In this document: in pieces, positions 3,582-26,337 of the stretch | How the letters are laid out: every line of letters starts with the position of its first letter | Position numbering within the stretch: position 1 is the stretch's first letter | Assembly (NCBI GenBank): GCA_024277055.1 | Contig: JAJRVZ010000250.1 | Span: 1-33,563, forward strand | From: Calditrichota bacterium | GTDB taxonomy: Bacteria > Calditrichota > Calditrichia > JAJRVZ01 | DNA length: 33,563 nt | Direction of reading: 5' to 3' | The notes under the pieces: model-generated | Told to the model about the DNA's origin: nothing | What the model saw: the letters and a program-made list of their open reading frames with translations, nothing else | Database searches by the model: none | Translations under genes and position numbers: made by a program

Positions 3582-4700
3582 TTACCGGCCTTTCCGAATA
3601 ATTATGTTTCCGTTGATCGTTTCCAGCTGCACGTCAAATTTGCCGTCGTTGATTTTGCCCGTGCCGAAAATATATTTCCGCGGAGTGCCATGATCGTAAT
3701 TCCATTCATCCGACTCCTCGATATTCAAAGGAAAATCGGATTCAATTTTAAAATCCTGGCTGCTGTTACGGGTGTAGGTCAGTTTGACACGAAAGTCCGC
3801 TGAGAATCTTTCCGGGAGCGAAAGTTTGATTTCCCCCCCCATTGAGGACAGGTCCACATCACGGTGAATATCATCGGAAACGCCGGTTACATTCACAACC
3901 ACATCACCTCCCATGGTTGATGCGCGGATCTCGCCATTCACCTTCTGCACTTCGATATCCCCGCCCATGGTCTTGGCCTTTACAAAAATCCCCGCACTGC
4001 GGATATCGATATCTCCGCCCATGGTGGATACTTCAGCGCCTTTTGGCGCCGATTCAACATAGATGTCACCCCCCATGGTGTTTATATTTACTTTACTTTT
4101 TTTATCCTGCGCGGAAAAACTTATACTGCTACGCAGGGTTATGTCTCCCCCCATGGTCGTACCTTTCATATCACCGGAAACATTGTAAAAATTAATGTCG
4201 CCGCCCATGGTTTTTATATCGCCCGCCAATTGTGAATCGCGCATATCGATATCTCCGCCCATGGTGGTCATGTGAATTTCACCGTTCAGTTTAATGAAAT
4301 CGAGATTTCCCCCCAGGGTTTGACCGTCAATCACACCCTGCACATTTTCAATGCGAATGTCGCCGCCCATGGTTTCCAGGTTCAGATCGAATTCGTACGG
4401 GACGCGGATTTTGAAATGAATATTCCGGTTGTTTCCGAAGGCGTCAAAGGCTTCGATGTCCACGCCGTCATCATGACGGTCGATTTCAATATGGTACTTT
4501 TCCGGGTCGTAGCGGCGAATATCTGCACGAACCTCAATCCTGGAATCGTCCCAACCCAGCACATCGATGGAACCGCCGCTGTTAATGTCAACACGCAGTT
4601 TTTGCCCGGGCCGGACGTCGATTTCTTTTTTGAATTCGTTTTGTGCAAAAGCGACGCCGGTGATCAGCAGTATGGCTAATAACACGTGTTTCAATTTCAT
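3582..4700 (-). CDS. Exported DUF4097-like beta-repeat protein with iterated TMGGDI motifs
   Basis: A 372-residue protein with a clear signal peptide (MKLKHVLLAILLITGVAFAQ), so it is exported. The body looks like a right-handed beta-solenoid of the DUF4097 / putative-adhesin type. About ten rungs each begin with TMGGDI or a close variant (TLGGNL, TMGGDV, SMGGEI) at roughly 13-25-residue spacing between about residues 110 and 290. The start at 4700 is chosen because GAGGAG lies just upstream and the signal peptide begins there; an in-frame ATG at 4724 would overlap the preceding stop. It lies 20 bp after the anti-sigma gene and is probably the structural or sensory output of the sigma-factor operon. 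The biochemical role of this family is unknown. Confidence 0.85.
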   Translation of the reverse strand: MKLKHVLLAILLITGVAFAQNEFKKEIDVRPGQKLRVDINSGGSIDVLGWDDSRIEVRADIRRYDPEKYHIEIDRHDDGVDIEAFDAFGNNRNIHFKIRVPYEFDLNLETMGGDIRIENVQGVIDGQTLGGNLDFIKLNGEIHMTTMGGDIDMRDSQLAGDIKTMGGDINFYNVSGDMKGTTMGGDITLRSSISFSAQDKKSKVNINTMGGDIYVESAPKGAEVSTMGGDIDIRSAGIFVKAKTMGGDIEVQKVNGEIRASTMGGDVVVNVTGVSDDIHRDVDLSSMGGEIKLSLPERFSADFRVKLTYTRNSSQDFKIESDFPLNIEESDEWNYDHGTPRKYIFGTGKINDGKFDVQLETINGNIIIRKGR

Positions 4701-4720
4701 GTGTTTCTCCTCGGATAATT

Positions 4721-5629
4721 TCAATTATTTAATACTTTTTTTACTTTGAACTCAACCGCCCGGTTAGGCTGCTGCTGAATTTGCCGCAGCAATTCCGGTG
4801 AAAACTTTTTATTGGCCAGGTAATCGATGGCTGCCAATCGTACAGTGACCTGCGTATCGGATTTAAGCAATTCAATGAATGCATTCTGAATTTCACTGTC
4901 GTCCGGATACCGCATCAACGAATGTATGGCTTTCATACGAACGGCCGCATTGTTATCGTTTTTCATGGCATAAATCAGCGCTTCTTTGATGCGCGGGTCA
5001 ATGACCTCGTCCGCCCAGGCAATGGCTTTCAGTCGTGAACCCACCGATTCCTCATTCAACAGCGACTGGGCCAGCACGTCTTTCACCAGCGGATCATCGG
5101 GATCGCGGACAATATCGAGATGAGTGGTGACATCAAATGAAAGGGCAACCTGCTGCTCATCGATTTTTTTAAAAGAAATATTACTGTATATGTAGGGAGA
5201 ATTCTGAACATCCCTCAGGTCCGTGTTACCGGCTGCAACCTTGCGTATTTCACCGATAAAATTCTTTCTGCCGTCCGAGTCAACCAGCCGACCGGCTGTC
5301 CAACCGCCGATTAATAGCAGAATACTCAGGGCATACGCCACGGACGGACGCCGGAACCATTCCGGAATCCAGCTTACGCTTTGTTGCACCTTTATCTTTT
5401 TTGGACGGTCCAGTTTGCTCAAAACATCCCGCCGCATTTGACTGAATTCTTTCTCCGGGGCGGTTTCGAGGGAGGCGCCACTTTGCAACAGCAAATGATG
5501 GGTAGCGATCATTTCCGCACAATCACTGCATTCGGCCGCGTGTTGCCGCAGTTGTACCGTCTGATCGGCATCCAGTTCGCCGGCCAGAAATTTGGTTATA
5601 AAATCGTCGAATTTTTTACTGTGTGCCAT
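4721..5629 (-). CDS. Transmembrane anti-sigma factor (zf-HC2) with C-terminal HEAT-like repeats
   Basis: A 302-residue protein. The N-terminal cytoplasmic part holds the zinc anti-sigma motif H-x3-C-x2-C (H30, C34, C37 in QHAAECSDCAEM), which in this family clamps an ECF sigma factor. One transmembrane helix follows at about residues 96-115. The C-terminal part, on the far side of the membrane by topology, contains helical repeats of the HEAT type from about residue 195 (for example AAVRMKAIHSLMRYPD and VTVRLAAIDYLANKK). It starts 9 bp after the sigma factor stop, with a GAGGA ribosome site overlapping that stop, so the two are coupled. HEAT-like repeats would make a protein-binding sensor domain, which is an inference. 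Confidence 0.85.
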   Translation of the reverse strand: MAHSKKFDDFITKFLAGELDADQTVQLRQHAAECSDCAEMIATHHLLLQSGASLETAPEKEFSQMRRDVLSKLDRPKKIKVQQSVSWIPEWFRRPSVAYALSILLLIGGWTAGRLVDSDGRKNFIGEIRKVAAGNTDLRDVQNSPYIYSNISFKKIDEQQVALSFDVTTHLDIVRDPDDPLVKDVLAQSLLNEESVGSRLKAIAWADEVIDPRIKEALIYAMKNDNNAAVRMKAIHSLMRYPDDSEIQNAFIELLKSDTQVTVRLAAIDYLANKKFSPELLRQIQQQPNRAVEFKVKKVLNN

Positions 5630-10195: not shown

Positions 10196-11566
10196 ATGAT
10201 ACAGCCGAGACTACTGGTAATAGATGATGACCAGGCCCATCGCGAGGGCATGGTATTGATGCTGGAGGATGAATCCTATCAGGTGGATCAGGCGGACAGC
10301 GGTGAAAGCGCGTTGGAGCTGATCCGGCGTCACAGCTACGATCTGGTCGTTACCGATTATAAAATGCAGAAAATCGACGGCATGGAATTGCTGAAAATAA
10401 TAAACGACAGCAATCCGTTGCTGAAGGTAATCATGGTGACCGGTTACGGTTCCATCGAAAAGGCGGTGGAAGCTATTCATCTGGGCGCCATCGATTACAT
10501 CACTAAACCGGTCGATCCCAAGAAACTGAAATCGGTAATCCGACAGGCGCTGGAGATACCCGCCCTGGAGGAAGTTCCAGCCGCAGAAACAAAAACGTTA
10601 CCGGATCGCTATATTCACTTTGGTGAGATCATCGGGCGCAGCAAGGCGGTAAAGGATACCATCAATAAAATAAATGAAATCGCCGATATAGATGTGCCGG
10701 TACTGGTTTTCGGCGAAAGCGGCACCGGAAAGGAACTGGTAGCGCGGGCAATCCATTCTTCCAGCAAGCGCAGGGAGGAAGCGTTCATTGCCGTGAATAC
10801 CGGGGCAATCGCCAAAGATTTGATTCTGTCCGAATTGTTCGGTCATGAAAAAGGCGCCTTCACCGGCGCGGTCGATCAGAAAAAGGGCAAATTCGAAGAA
10901 GCCAATAACGGAACACTGTTTCTCGATGAAATCAGCACCATGAGCGAGCATGTACAGATCGCTCTGTTGCGGGTACTGGAAAACAATACGATTGATCGTG
11001 TCGGAGGTAAAAGAGCCATACCGGTAAATGTGCGTATTGTGGCGGCCACGAACGAAAACCTGGAACAGTGCATTGCCGACGGCCGGTTCCGTGAGGACCT
11101 CTACTACCGGTTGAATGTATATGCCATCGAACTGGCGCCGTTGCGGGAACGCACCGAAGATATTCCGCTGCTGTGCGATTATTTTATCCGGAAATTTAAC
11201 AACGAGTTCGGCAAATCGGTGAAAGGGATAGCCGAAGATGCCATGCAGTTTTTACAGAGTTATTCATGGCCGGGTAATATTCGCGAACTGCGTAATGTGG
11301 TTCTGCGGGCTATGATCCCGGCAAAAGAAAAGATAAACAAACGCAACCTGCCGGACATGGTGGTAAAAGGCGGTGGGCGAGGTGAGGAAATCCGCTTTCA
11401 GGCAGGTACGCCCTTGCCGGAAATCGAGCGGGAATCAATCATCAAAACCCTGAAAAAAGTGCGCGGCAACAAGCTGAAAGCGGCGGAATTGCTGGGTATC
11501 AGCCGGCGTTCTCTTTATAACAAGATTGAAGATTATGATATCCGTGATGAAGAGTTTGGCGGATAG
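10196..11566 (+). CDS. NtrC-family sigma-54-dependent response regulator
   Basis: A 456-residue protein with three domains. The receiver (1-115) has acidic residues D10-D12, phosphoacceptor D54 (VVTDYKM), T82 and K104. The AAA+ domain (about 143-370) has Walker A GESGTGKE at 173-180, the sigma-54-contacting GAFTGA at 220-225 and Walker B GTLFLDEI at 239-246. The C-terminal Fis-type HTH ends KAAELLGISRRSLYNKIEDY. It activates transcription by RNA polymerase with sigma-54 after phosphorylation. No histidine kinase gene is adjacent, so it is an orphan regulator and its signal and targets cannot be assigned. The long leader upstream contains two stem-loops. Confidence 0.95.
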   Translation: MIQPRLLVIDDDQAHREGMVLMLEDESYQVDQADSGESALELIRRHSYDLVVTDYKMQKIDGMELLKIINDSNPLLKVIMVTGYGSIEKAVEAIHLGAIDYITKPVDPKKLKSVIRQALEIPALEEVPAAETKTLPDRYIHFGEIIGRSKAVKDTINKINEIADIDVPVLVFGESGTGKELVARAIHSSSKRREEAFIAVNTGAIAKDLILSELFGHEKGAFTGAVDQKKGKFEEANNGTLFLDEISTMSEHVQIALLRVLENNTIDRVGGKRAIPVNVRIVAATNENLEQCIADGRFREDLYYRLNVYAIELAPLRERTEDIPLLCDYFIRKFNNEFGKSVKGIAEDAMQFLQSYSWPGNIRELRNVVLRAMIPAKEKINKRNLPDMVVKGGGRGEEIRFQAGTPLPEIERESIIKTLKKVRGNKLKAAELLGISRRSLYNKIEDYDIRDEEFGG

Positions 11567-22930: not shown

Positions 22931-23971
22931 ATGGTCAGCAAAGATCAAATTCTGGCAGAACTGAAATCGATTAACTATCCGGGATTTAAAAAAGATATTA
23001 TTTCATTCGGACTGGTGAAGGATGTCCTGATTGACGGTGGAGCCGTGCAGTTGATTCTGGATATACGAACGCAGGATCAGAAAGTCATCCAGCAAATTAT
23101 AGATTCGGTAAAACTGGCGGTACAGGCCATTGACGGGGTAAACTCGGTGGAAACGAAGTTGGGAGCTGCTGCGGCACAACCGGCGCCCACACAGGATTCC
23201 GCCTATTTGCCCGGAGTAAAATATAAAATTGCGGTCGCCAGCGGAAAAGGCGGTGTTGGTAAATCCACGGTTGCGGTGAACCTGGCAGTTGCCCTGGCGA
23301 AACAGGGTCATAAAGTCGGGCTGCTCGACGCTGATATTTACGGTCCGAGTATTCCTTTGATGCTGGGTGTAAGCACACGTCCGGATTTTGACGGTCAGAA
23401 ATTAAAACCGATCGATCGATACGGTGTAAAACTGATGTCACTGGGTTTCCTGCTGACGGATGAAAGTCCGGTTATCTGGCGGGGGCCGCTGGTAATGCGC
23501 GCCATTCAGCAGTTAATGAAGGATGTTGACTGGGGTGATGTCGATATTATGCTGTTTGATATGCCGCCGGGAACAGGGGATGCACAACTGACGCTTTCGC
23601 AATCCGTCAGTCTGGACGGCGCCGTGATTGTCTCAACCCCGCAGGATGTTGCCCTGCTGGATGCGGTGAAAGGCGTACAAATGTTCCAGAAAGTAAACGT
23701 ACCGATCCTCGGTATCGTAGAAAACATGAGTTATTTTTTATGCCCCCATTGCAACGAGCGAACAGATATTTTTGATTCAGGCGGCGTAAAACGGGAATGT
23801 GACCGTCTGGGAGTTCCGTTGCTTGGTGAAATTCCTCTGGATACCGAGATACGGGCCGGAGGGGACAGTGGTACGCCGGTGGTTCAAAAGAATCCGGAGA
23901 ATCCACAATCTTTATCATTTATGCATATTGCCAAACGGATTACAGCTAATCTGTTCCGTACCGGGGAGTAA
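22931..23971 (+). CDS. mrp: Mrp/ApbC-type P-loop Fe-S cluster carrier
   Basis: A 346-residue protein. The N-terminal 75 or so residues are a DUF59/MIP18-like domain (ILAELKSINYPGFKKDII ... DGVNSVETKLG). The ParA/MinD-like ATPase follows with the deviant Walker A GKGGVGKSTVAVNL, FDMPPGTGDAQLTLSQ and, near the C-terminus, the cluster-binding CPHC (LCPHCNERTDIF). The family binds and transfers [4Fe-4S] clusters to apoproteins. GGAGAG lies just upstream of the ATG. It may serve Fe-S enzymes such as the radical SAM protein, but that is inference. A hairpin begins inside its last codons and stop. Confidence 0.93.
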   Translation: MVSKDQILAELKSINYPGFKKDIISFGLVKDVLIDGGAVQLILDIRTQDQKVIQQIIDSVKLAVQAIDGVNSVETKLGAAAAQPAPTQDSAYLPGVKYKIAVASGKGGVGKSTVAVNLAVALAKQGHKVGLLDADIYGPSIPLMLGVSTRPDFDGQKLKPIDRYGVKLMSLGFLLTDESPVIWRGPLVMRAIQQLMKDVDWGDVDIMLFDMPPGTGDAQLTLSQSVSLDGAVIVSTPQDVALLDAVKGVQMFQKVNVPILGIVENMSYFLCPHCNERTDIFDSGGVKRECDRLGVPLLGEIPLDTEIRAGGDSGTPVVQKNPENPQSLSFMHIAKRITANLFRTGE

Positions 23972-23977
23972 TTCCCC
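23961..23977 (+). promoter_or_regulatory. Hairpin overlapping the mrp stop codon, near-copy of the terminator stem
   Basis: GGGGA and TCCCC flank the TAA of mrp. The surrounding ACCGGGGAGTAATTCCCC is a near-copy of the terminator stem that begins 33 bp downstream (ACCGGGGATATAATCCCC). No T-run follows this first copy. Confidence 0.45.
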
Positions 23978-23992
23978 ACTTTAATATCACAT

Positions 23993-24027
23993 ACCGGGGA
24001 TATAATCCCCGGTGTATTTTTTATTTG
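23993..24027 (+). terminator. Rho-independent terminator after mrp
   Basis: ACCGGGGA (23993-24000) and TCCCCGGT (24006-24013) form a perfect 8-bp stem with a 5-nt loop, followed by GTATTTTTTATTTG. It separates mrp from the Cas6-like gene. Confidence 0.85.
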
Positions 24028-24096
24028 TCCCTATTTCATTTTGCTAATATACTGATTTTAAAGCGATTACGGCGTAACGATATTTTAAACGGTTTT

Positions 24097-24105
24097 TGGT
24101 ATAAT
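24097..24105 (+). promoter_or_regulatory. Extended -10 promoter of the Cas6-like gene
   Basis: TGGTATAAT is an extended -10 element with a perfect TATAAT at 24100-24105. No clear -35 box lies upstream. Transcription would start at about 24112, at the base of the leader hairpin. Confidence 0.5.
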
Positions 24106-24110
24106 AATTG

Positions 24111-24134
24111 CCCTGATAACTTCGTAAATCAGGG
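24111..24134 (+). promoter_or_regulatory. Leader hairpin abutting the Cas6-like gene ribosome binding site
   Basis: CCCTGAT (24111-24117) and ATCAGGG (24128-24134) form a perfect 7-bp stem with a 10-nt loop containing TTCG. The 3' arm includes the first bases of the Shine-Dalgarno sequence GGGGAG (24132-24137), so the folded RNA would partly mask translation from the ATG at 24142. Confidence 0.55.
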
Positions 24135-24141
24135 GAGTTTT

Positions 24142-24981
24142 ATGCGCATTCGTGTCACGTTTAAAAATAACAATGTCACAAGTTCGTTACCGATCAACAC
24201 CAATTATTATCTGGCCGACATTCTGCAACAGATCAGCTACGAGTATAACAGTTTTCTGTATTCGCTGATACCGAGAAGATATCGAAACGGCTCGGCATTT
24301 GATTTTTTTACATTTTCCCAGCTGTTAATCCCCAAACGCAAAATCATTAACCGAAGAATAGTCGTTATGTCGAAGGAATTTCACTGGTATATTTCATCTC
24401 CGTTTCACCAGTTTCTCGGGATTATTGCGCAGGGTTTAAGAAATCGGGGAAAAATTCGTATTAGAAGTCAGGTTTATGAAATAGAAAGGGTGGCTTTTCT
24501 GAAAAGCCCGAAGTTTAAGGAATACGGTATGCGCTTCAAATGCCTTTCGCCGGTTATTATTCAACTGACTAAAAATGAAAGCATTCAGGGGGTGCGAACT
24601 CTTGGGAATTTTATTCTGCCGGATGATGAAAAATTTTTCGAAAAAGTTCGAGAAGATATTGAATACAAGTTCAGAAAAGTTAAGGGGTACAGTCTTCGCA
24701 AACTCGATTTTAAAATGCGATTCGATGAAAGGTATCTTCAAAGCAGGGATTTCAAAATCACAAAACTTGTTGCGATTGAAAGAAAACGACACCGTCCCGA
24801 TATGGTCCGCGGGTTCCTGTCGCCTTTTTATATAAAAGCCCGGCCCCCAGTATTGCAACTCATCTATGATACCGGTCTCGGTGACTTAAATAAACTTGGA
24901 TTCGGGATGGTCGAAAGAGTCGATTTAAAAAGAAAACCTATCAAAACGGTCGGAGCCGACCGGTTCCGGTCTGTTATTTGA
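24142..24981 (+). CDS. cas6: Solitary Cas6-like CRISPR RNA endoribonuclease (RAMP protein)
   Basis: A 279-residue protein with the layout of Cas6. It starts MRIRVTFKNN followed by LPINTNYYLADILQQI, a FTFSQLLIP segment at 56-64 and YISSPFHQFLG at about 83-93. The C-terminal RAMP domain carries ITKLVAIE, GFLSPFYIKARPPVLQLIYD and the glycine-rich loop TGLGDLNKLGFGMVE (244-258), the family hallmark. Cas6 cuts CRISPR precursor RNA within repeats. No CRISPR array or other cas gene is in the window. The N-terminal region holds no His before H81, whereas several catalytic Cas6 proteins use a His near residues 26-46. The start is set by AGGGGAG; longer in-frame sequence to 24025 has no support. It is monocistronic, with its own promoter and terminator. 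Confidence 0.85.
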   Translation: MRIRVTFKNNNVTSSLPINTNYYLADILQQISYEYNSFLYSLIPRRYRNGSAFDFFTFSQLLIPKRKIINRRIVVMSKEFHWYISSPFHQFLGIIAQGLRNRGKIRIRSQVYEIERVAFLKSPKFKEYGMRFKCLSPVIIQLTKNESIQGVRTLGNFILPDDEKFFEKVREDIEYKFRKVKGYSLRKLDFKMRFDERYLQSRDFKITKLVAIERKRHRPDMVRGFLSPFYIKARPPVLQLIYDTGLGDLNKLGFGMVERVDLKRKPIKTVGADRFRSVI

Positions 24982-25010
24982 AGCATTTCTGTTTCGTTCC
25001 TTCCGCTTAG

Positions 25011-25047
25011 AAGGTCCTGCAAACGCCTTATGCAGGGCCTTTTTTTA
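25011..25047 (+). terminator. Rho-independent terminator after the Cas6-like gene
   Basis: AAGGTCCTGCA (25011-25021) pairs with TGCAGGGCCTT (25031-25041), 11 bp with one T·G pair, and the T-run 25040-25047 follows. Confidence 0.92.
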
Positions 25048-25359
25048 TTTAATACGCAATAAACCGAAACTTTCATGACCGGATTTATTCAATACCGCAA
25101 AATAATAAAAAATGCATTTATATGGTTCAGCGTCTATTGTTTATTTAAACAGGAGATATGGGTACCGGAGAATCAGATTGATAATCCAGTATTTTTCCGA
25201 ATCGGTCTTTTAAATCCTGGTGAAAAAGTGTCGAAGAACAGCGGTTGGAACCGGTGCGGATTTCCGGGAAAAGTGAAGTCTAAATTTCAGGCAAATTATT
25301 AGGTCAAATGAGCAAAAAATCGTATATTCCCTGCCCTGAAATATGAGAAGGATGTATTG
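25048..25359. other. Intergenic stretch with no convincing gene
   Basis: About 310 bp between the Cas6-like terminator and the YpdA-type gene. I see no CRISPR-like direct repeats, no tRNA fold and no recognisable protein. A 75-codon open frame (25075-25302, plus) lacks a ribosome site and resembles no family. A small palindrome CGGTT-GG-AACCG lies at 25242-25253, and TATATT at 25323-25328 could be a -10 box for the next gene, with no clear -35. Confidence 0.5.
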
Positions 25360-26337
25360 ATGGATACAACAATCGCCATCGTCGGAGCGGGGCCCGCGGC
25401 CCTTTCCTGTGCAATTGCTGCAAAAAAAGAACAGATAGACAGTGTTATGCTGGACAAAGGCAACCTGGTTAACAGCATCATTAATTTTCCGACGAATATG
25501 ACATTTTTTTCTACTCCTGATTTGCTCGAAATCGGTGGGATCCCATTTACGTCAACCAACTTTCGCCCGACGCGTCTTGAGGCTGTGAGTTACTACCAGA
25601 GACTGGTACGACATTTCGGCCTGCAATTCGAGCCGTTCTGTGAAGTGCAAAGTATCATAAAGGAAAACAGTCATTTTGAAATTAATTTTCAGCGGAAAGG
25701 AAGGACGGAACACCTCCGGGCGAAGCAGGTAATTATCGCCACCGGTTTTTATGACAACCCGAACCGGTTAAATATCCCGGGCGAGGATATGCCGCATGTT
25801 TCACATTACTACCGCGAACCTTTTCAACATTTCGGGCAAAATGTTGTTGTTGTCGGTGGAAAAAATTCCGCGGTAGAGGCGGCGCTTGAGCTGTTTCGGG
25901 GCGGGGCAAGGGTTACCATGGTTCACCGCAGGGAAGAGATAAAAGAAAGTGTAAAATACTGGATTTTACCGGATATACTGAACAGAATAAAGGAAGGGAA
26001 CATAAAAACATACCTGCGAAGCACGATCACAAATATCGGCAGGGACTCGGTTGCGATTCATTCAGGACACGAAAAAACCGAAATTCCGGCTGATGCCGTT
26101 TATCTGTTGACCGGATATCATCCCGACATGCGGCTTCTGACGCAAGCCGGAGTGTCGGTCGATAAGCAAACACAAATTCCGGCTCATAATGCGGAAACAC
26201 TTGAAAGCAATATACCGGGTCTGTATCTGGCGGGTTCCATAATTGCCGGCCGCAATGCGAACAGGATATTTATAGAAAATTCGCGCGAGCATGGTGATTT
26301 GATAGTTTCCGATATAAAAAACAGGCAAAACGTTTGA
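25360..26337 (+). CDS. ypdA: YpdA-type FAD/NADPH disulfide reductase (putative bacillithiol disulfide reductase)
   Basis: A 325-residue flavoprotein with two dinucleotide folds. The FAD motif is IVGAGPAALSCA at the N-terminus, and the NADPH motif VVVGGKNSAVEAALEL is at about 165-180. YpdA-like hallmarks are LVNSIINFPTNMTFFSTPDLLEIGG-type sequence at about residues 35-60 and the absence of the CxxC pair of thioredoxin reductases. In Firmicutes, YpdA/Bdr reduces bacillithiol disulfide using NADPH; whether this host makes bacillithiol is not shown by the window. ATG 25360 is preferred to TTG 25357, with AAGGA just upstream. It precedes the PTS genes but is separated from them by a promoter. Confidence 0.85.
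   Translation: MDTTIAIVGAGPAALSCAIAAKKEQIDSVMLDKGNLVNSIINFPTNMTFFSTPDLLEIGGIPFTSTNFRPTRLEAVSYYQRLVRHFGLQFEPFCEVQSIIKENSHFEINFQRKGRTEHLRAKQVIIATGFYDNPNRLNIPGEDMPHVSHYYREPFQHFGQNVVVVGGKNSAVEAALELFRGGARVTMVHRREEIKESVKYWILPDILNRIKEGNIKTYLRSTITNIGRDSVAIHSGHEKTEIPADAVYLLTGYHPDMRLLTQAGVSVDKQTQIPAHNAETLESNIPGLYLAGSIIAGRNANRIFIENSREHGDLIVSDIKNRQNV

Follow-up and report, generated by a model that had tools for sequence, protein, structure and literature searches.

A stand-alone Cas6 without the canonical catalytic triad, kept at a fixed locus in Calditrichia, may be a domesticated RNA-binding protein under sigma-54-like control

A cas6 gene standing alone among housekeeping genes raises the question of whether its product still serves CRISPR or has been taken into other service. 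The gene considered here lies at positions 24142 to 24981 on the plus strand of a 33,563-nucleotide stretch of DNA (the window), which is one entire contig of a Calditrichota assembly of 3.96 Mb in 386 contigs (88.8% complete). Its open reading frame starts with an ATG at 24142 and closes with a stop codon ending at 24981, the frame being open since 24025, and encodes 279 amino acids. Upstream lies mrp (22931-23971, plus strand), encoding an Fe-S carrier P-loop NTPase, and downstream, in this genome, a gene for a YpdA-like oxidoreductase (Pyr_redox; 25357-26337, plus strand), as the initial annotation had described.

Membership of the Cas6 sequence and fold family is firm. The protein matches TIGR01877 with 99.6 bits (3.1e-28; cut-off 58.65), PF01881 with 74.7 bits (1.5e-20; cut-off 23) and PF21350 with 39.4 bits (7.7e-10; cut-off 27), all above the curated cut-offs, and it matches the PADLOC Cas6b profile at 9e-38. 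These matches agree with its earlier recognition as a Cas6 RAMP protein from a glycine-rich loop and the FTFS and ISSPF segments, all of which are present. An AF2 model (pLDDT 84.9, pTM 0.83) has the Cas6 fold. Its top Foldseek matches in the PDB are PH0350 (3qjj, E 8.6e-21) and then PF0393 (3ufc, 6.1e-20), with the Pyrococcus furiosus Cas6 (PfCas6) structures 3i4h and 3pkm ranking below them; archaeal Cas6 structures such as 3zfv and 4ilm match the model weakly (TM ~0.43-0.52).

The same gene recurs beyond the window. Among Calditrichota/Calditrichia genomes, some of them labelled Caldithrix, the order recN - unknown - mrp - cas6 - ... PTS - pgi - metK is found in 11 further Calditrichia genomes, whose orthologues are 33-45% identical to the window protein. 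Counting the window's own genome, this core cas6 occupies one site in 12 genomes from eight genera and two families, and its neighbours are housekeeping genes in all 12 (three contigs end near cas6: G025 and G033 show one side only, and G017 shows little of the far side). While mrp is the constant upstream neighbour, a subtilase gene occupies the ypdA-like position downstream of cas6 in relatives, where the downstream cluster reads PTS IIC-IID-HPr-ptsI-pgi-metK. Other relatives lack the gene at this site: mrp is followed directly by PTS genes in G002, a member of the same family, by ypdA in G001 and by the subtilase gene in G031. The junctions in all three are clean, so cas6 behaves as a discrete unit confined to one site. 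In the simplest view, core cas6 is ancestral to both families and has been lost several times since; its transfer into the window lineage at the same site is a less simple account. In G015 (L148, 1-984), a sigma-54-like site and palindromes follow mrp without cas6, and unrelated sequence then runs to the contig end; an insertion perhaps removed cas6 there.

In a tree of the 12 core proteins and 23 other Cas6 proteins, including those from CRISPR loci of Calditrichia, the core proteins form a single clade on a long branch (support 100/100), and the Cas6 proteins of the Calditrichia CRISPR loci fall outside it. A stray gene from a cas operon was considered and rejected, given the locus shared with 11 further genomes and the separation of the core clade from CRISPR-locus Cas6; a recent horizontal fragment or pseudogene was likewise rejected for the constant place and frame. 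The dN/dS of core cas6 was readable for one pair of genomes (G021/G039), other pairs being, for example, saturated, and in that pair it is 0.037, compared with 0.023 for mrp, 0.028 for metK and 0.060 for pgi. Core cas6 is under strong purifying selection in this pair, and its frames are intact in relatives, with stops located at the gene ends. An ordinary cas6 that has strayed from its operon and is decaying without function would fit the absence of the gene from several relatives with clean junctions, but such decay should bring broken frames and relaxed selection, neither of which is seen, and the occupation of one locus in eight genera with conserved flanking elements speaks against it as well; we regard this explanation as very improbable. 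Calditrichota have long retained core cas6 at a single, fixed position surrounded by housekeeping genes.

What has been kept is not the usual active site. We take Tyr31, His46 and Lys52 to be the active-site residues of PfCas6. In the alignment, each of the 12 core proteins has other residues at all three positions, whereas all aligned Cas6 proteins outside the core clade that span this stretch retain the triad, within the pattern IY ... LH..G ... K.FKLFTFS. The His slot holds Tyr in the window protein and Asn, Thr, Ser, Lys, Ala or Glu in the others, and the Lys slot mostly Asp or Asn. The initial annotation had noted an atypical N-terminal site with no His before residue 81; the first His is indeed residue 81, and the same triad loss is common to the 11 syntenic orthologues. 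Its candidate replacements, Tyr33, Tyr35, Tyr40 and Arg45-Arg46, occur at those positions but find no support as an active site. Tyr40 sits in the His slot and, on the alignment, is no conserved stand-in for the catalytic His, because the residue in this slot varies freely across orthologues; Arg45-Arg46 also vary, and only Tyr35 is almost invariant. Canonical Cas6 (PfCas6, 3pkm) and core Cas6 share the PF01881 and TIGR01877 profiles, the two-domain fold and the C-terminal glycine-rich loop GxGxxNxxGFGMVE, which is conserved in the core alignment, but core Cas6 lacks the triad equivalents and a CRISPR locus and has a sigma-54-like promoter.

The closest structural likeness is to PH0350 and PF0393, which we take to be non-catalytic Cas6 proteins of Pyrococcus. 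They are the best fold matches, share the RNA-binding RAMP fold and are also without the Tyr/His/Lys positions, but they branch with PfCas6 and 5yi6 (88/98) and not with the core clade, so the triad losses in the Pyrococcus pair and the core clade look independent. Loss of the triad need not mean loss of cutting, since Sulfolobus solfataricus Cas6-1 lacks the catalytic His and is still active with a Lys (PMC4041471). We would be wary of annotation by profile, as a TIGR01877 match need not mean a CRISPR processing enzyme. We would not file the core protein as a crRNA-processing Cas6, though the Tyr/His/Lys site is not universal among active Cas6 proteins.

The gene had also been credited with its own promoter and terminator, and both are borne out. 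A sigma-54-like -24/-12 site (TTGGTATAATAATTGCC) lies at 24096-24112 on the plus strand, and by consensus match such a site stands at fixed spacing in 11 of 11 readable mrp-cas6 gaps. It reads TTGGCAN6TTGTA in most relatives and is weaker in the window (TTGGTAN6TTGCC) and G019 (CTGGCAN6TTGAG). Two GGGAAATATTCCC-type palindromes are found about 100 bp upstream of it, with a spacing of 30-34 bp in 10 of the 11 gaps. In the window, palindrome 1 (GGGGAGTAATTCCCC, 23963-23977), a candidate binding site for an activator, runs across the mrp stop codon, and palindrome 2 (GGGGATATAATCCCC, 23996-24010), 33 bp from it, forms the apex of a terminator-like hairpin and doubles as the mrp terminator. Sigma-54 promoters with sites for an enhancer-binding protein are usually arranged in this way, with a -24/-12 site of the GG-N10-GC type and palindromes upstream, both recognised here by consensus match only.

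A strict sigma-54 pattern matched 12 times in 651 kb read on both strands (1.3 Mb), with nine of the matches upstream of core cas6, and strict palindromes occur in 12 copies in the 2.3 kb upstream of cas6 versus 10 in the ~649 kb elsewhere. In a regulon scan covering 1.69 of the 4.98 Mb of G004, a good tandem palindrome was essentially unique to cas6; other intergenic sigma-54 sites in that genome precede genes that, named from sequence, look like PFOR, NifX-like, HdeD and Hsp20 genes. Support for the site comes from its conservation across genomes and not from shuffling of single intergenic regions, in which it was not significant singly (p 0.05-0.65) and in which the best-scoring position in the window's genome and in G034 was not the conserved site. 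The window also encodes an NtrC-type sigma-54 response regulator (10196-11563, plus strand) whose G004 orthologue is 68% identical over the AAA domain. A sigma-54 activator system therefore exists in this genome, with no sign of acting on cas6; the regulator was considered as the cas6 activator and not assigned, its G004 orthologue lying ~50 kb from cas6. Within the cas6 leader of the window, a hairpin CCCTGAT...ATCAGGG (24113-24137) would pair with the ribosome-binding site, and TTTAATC is common to several relatives at this position; translational control by this hairpin is possible.

Directly 3' of cas6 is a conserved RNA-like element (24982-25046, plus strand) that ends in a stem and T-run (25013-25046). 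In relatives, the cas6 stop codon is followed by GGGTTTATTGCTTC..., then by a GC stem whose loop is of the CCCRCCGG type, and by a T-run; the window form has diverged (24992-25046). TATTGCTT is found in the element of 8 of 10 genomes, and 10 of 13 predicted pairs show changes on both sides. Any terminator should show paired changes of this kind; the feature that exceeds a plain terminator is the conserved, unpaired 5' section. An Rfam search of the window gave no match, and the element was not found at the cas6-less locus of G031.

Whether CRISPR remains a possible employer depends on the rest of the genome. An array search of the window found none, and the absence of an array stated in the initial annotation holds for the window; it fails for the genome, where contig C297 (L032, 1-12238) is type III-like and carries cas1, cas2, two array stretches and CARF genes without effector genes, cas6 not being among them. 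Its 37-nt repeat, on the minus-strand reading GTGAGAATGCTCCCCGTTATTCAGAGGGGATTGAGAC, is present in 15 copies over the two stretches. Four CARF genes (CARF5, CARF-HEPN, CARF-PDDEXK and CARF-RelE) are present, and a PolA-like gene with a weak RTasPolA match adjoins cas1, the genome's one Cas1 gene. Among the CARF genes, a 331-aa protein (L032, 8799-9794, minus strand) has no PADLOC match and looks ARPP-like by eye. Elsewhere in the window, the DNA encoding a DUF4097 protein (3582-4724, minus strand) has an imperfect run of 54-nt-spaced repeats (GCCCATGGT). No RAMP gene or second Cas6 (PF01881 or PF10040) was found in the window's genome at its 88.8% completeness, making the window gene the sole Cas6 detected there.

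The protein could therefore act in trans, as the initial annotation had allowed, since the genome does hold arrays: it would process or load pre-crRNA with a non-standard active site, cutting or holding repeat RNA from arrays such as those of C297, with their 8-nt end ATTGAGAC. With cas1, cas2 and CARF effectors beside the two array stretches and no other Cas6 found in this genome (G000) or in G019, this option stays in play; besides the His-less Cas6-1, Sulfolobus offers Cas6-3, which also processes a repeat-like, non-CRISPR ncRNA (PMC4041471), and repeats related to the window genome's own occur in G004 and G015. Against it, those ATTGAGAC-related repeats accompany type III loci with their own PF10040 Cas6, G015 is array-rich yet without core cas6, G034 shows no interference system other than a type I-C operon, a type that processes crRNA with Cas5 (PMC8616872), and the His-slot residue is unconserved among orthologues. 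We consider trans action a serious possibility, though on balance doubtful.

Across the class, most of the CRISPR systems seen have their own processor, be it a PF10040 Cas6, a catalytic-type PF01881 Cas6 or the I-C Cas5c. The type III loci of G004, G015, G025 and G036 bring a PF10040 Cas6, which in G036 is fused to RT-Cas1, and a separate catalytic-type PF01881 Cas6 is present in G004, G017, G023 and G033, the G023 copy being broken by a frame change. The G036 fusion is a 938-aa Cas6-RT-Cas1 protein (L130, 763-3579, minus strand) whose gene neighbours the type III locus and an array of the GATTGAGAC type. G027 (89% complete) keeps core cas6, and no Cas1, RAMP, other Cas6 or GATTGARAC array was found there, this being the one array type searched for; CRISPR parts were likewise not found in G039 (72% complete), which also keeps the gene. 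Conservation in relatives lacking CRISPR is thus seen in a few, incomplete genomes. Because CRISPR systems bring their own processors and G027 and G039 keep cas6 without detected CRISPR parts, a role outside crRNA maturation is favoured.

In the 18 genomes of the two families, Cas1 accompanies core cas6 in eight of the 12 that have it and turns up in one of the six that lack it; a weak link of core cas6 to CRISPR is possible. This frequent co-occurrence would suit a third role, in which a dead Cas6 produced under stress would act as a CRISPR regulator or inhibitor, competing for the repeat RNA and tuning the supply of crRNA. The lost triad, the kept fold and glycine-rich loop, and a sigma-54-like promoter fit for a signal-driven switch are compatible with it, but core cas6 is also present in G027 and G034, where no Cas6-using system was found. 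We judge it unlikely.

The 12 genes trace back to one origin and occupy a constant place; their products keep the fold and have lost all three active-site residues, and the promoter layout is shared. The long-kept place, the replaced RNA-cutting residues and an own stress-type promoter suggest another RNA job, and of the three fates first considered for the gene (trans action, RNA binding without cleavage, domestication) the evidence favours domestication, short of proof. We give about an even chance that the protein is a sigma-54-controlled, non-cleaving, lineage-domesticated RNA binder with the Cas6 fold. Under this domestication proposal, cas6 would have left its CRISPR context in an ancestor common to the Caldithrix family and the family of the window's bacterium, and would have settled permanently between mrp and the PTS/pgi/metK cluster. 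Upon a signal, an activator bound to the palindromes would turn cas6 on via sigma-54; the protein would then bind structured or repeat-like cellular RNA without applying the standard Cas6 cleavage chemistry to it, and the bound RNA may be protected, folded or silenced. The element just downstream of cas6 is one possible ligand. That domestication has brought a Cas6 pseudoenzyme into the core genome of this lineage, where it would serve as an RNA-binding regulator switched by sigma-54 and working outside CRISPR immunity, possibly on this element, is a tentative proposal that we place somewhat below an even chance.

In the open-access literature, we found no earlier report on Cas6 with sigma-54, on Calditrichota CRISPR or on domesticated Cas6. 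Cas genes in non-immune service are rare, and, if the proposal is correct, bacteria would have a clear instance of it in this orthologous Cas6, inherited vertically and stripped of its active site, and RNA binding derived from CRISPR would be connected with sigma-54 signalling. Caldithrix, as a cultured genus, would then offer a tractable test of a Cas6 fold freed from crRNA maturation.
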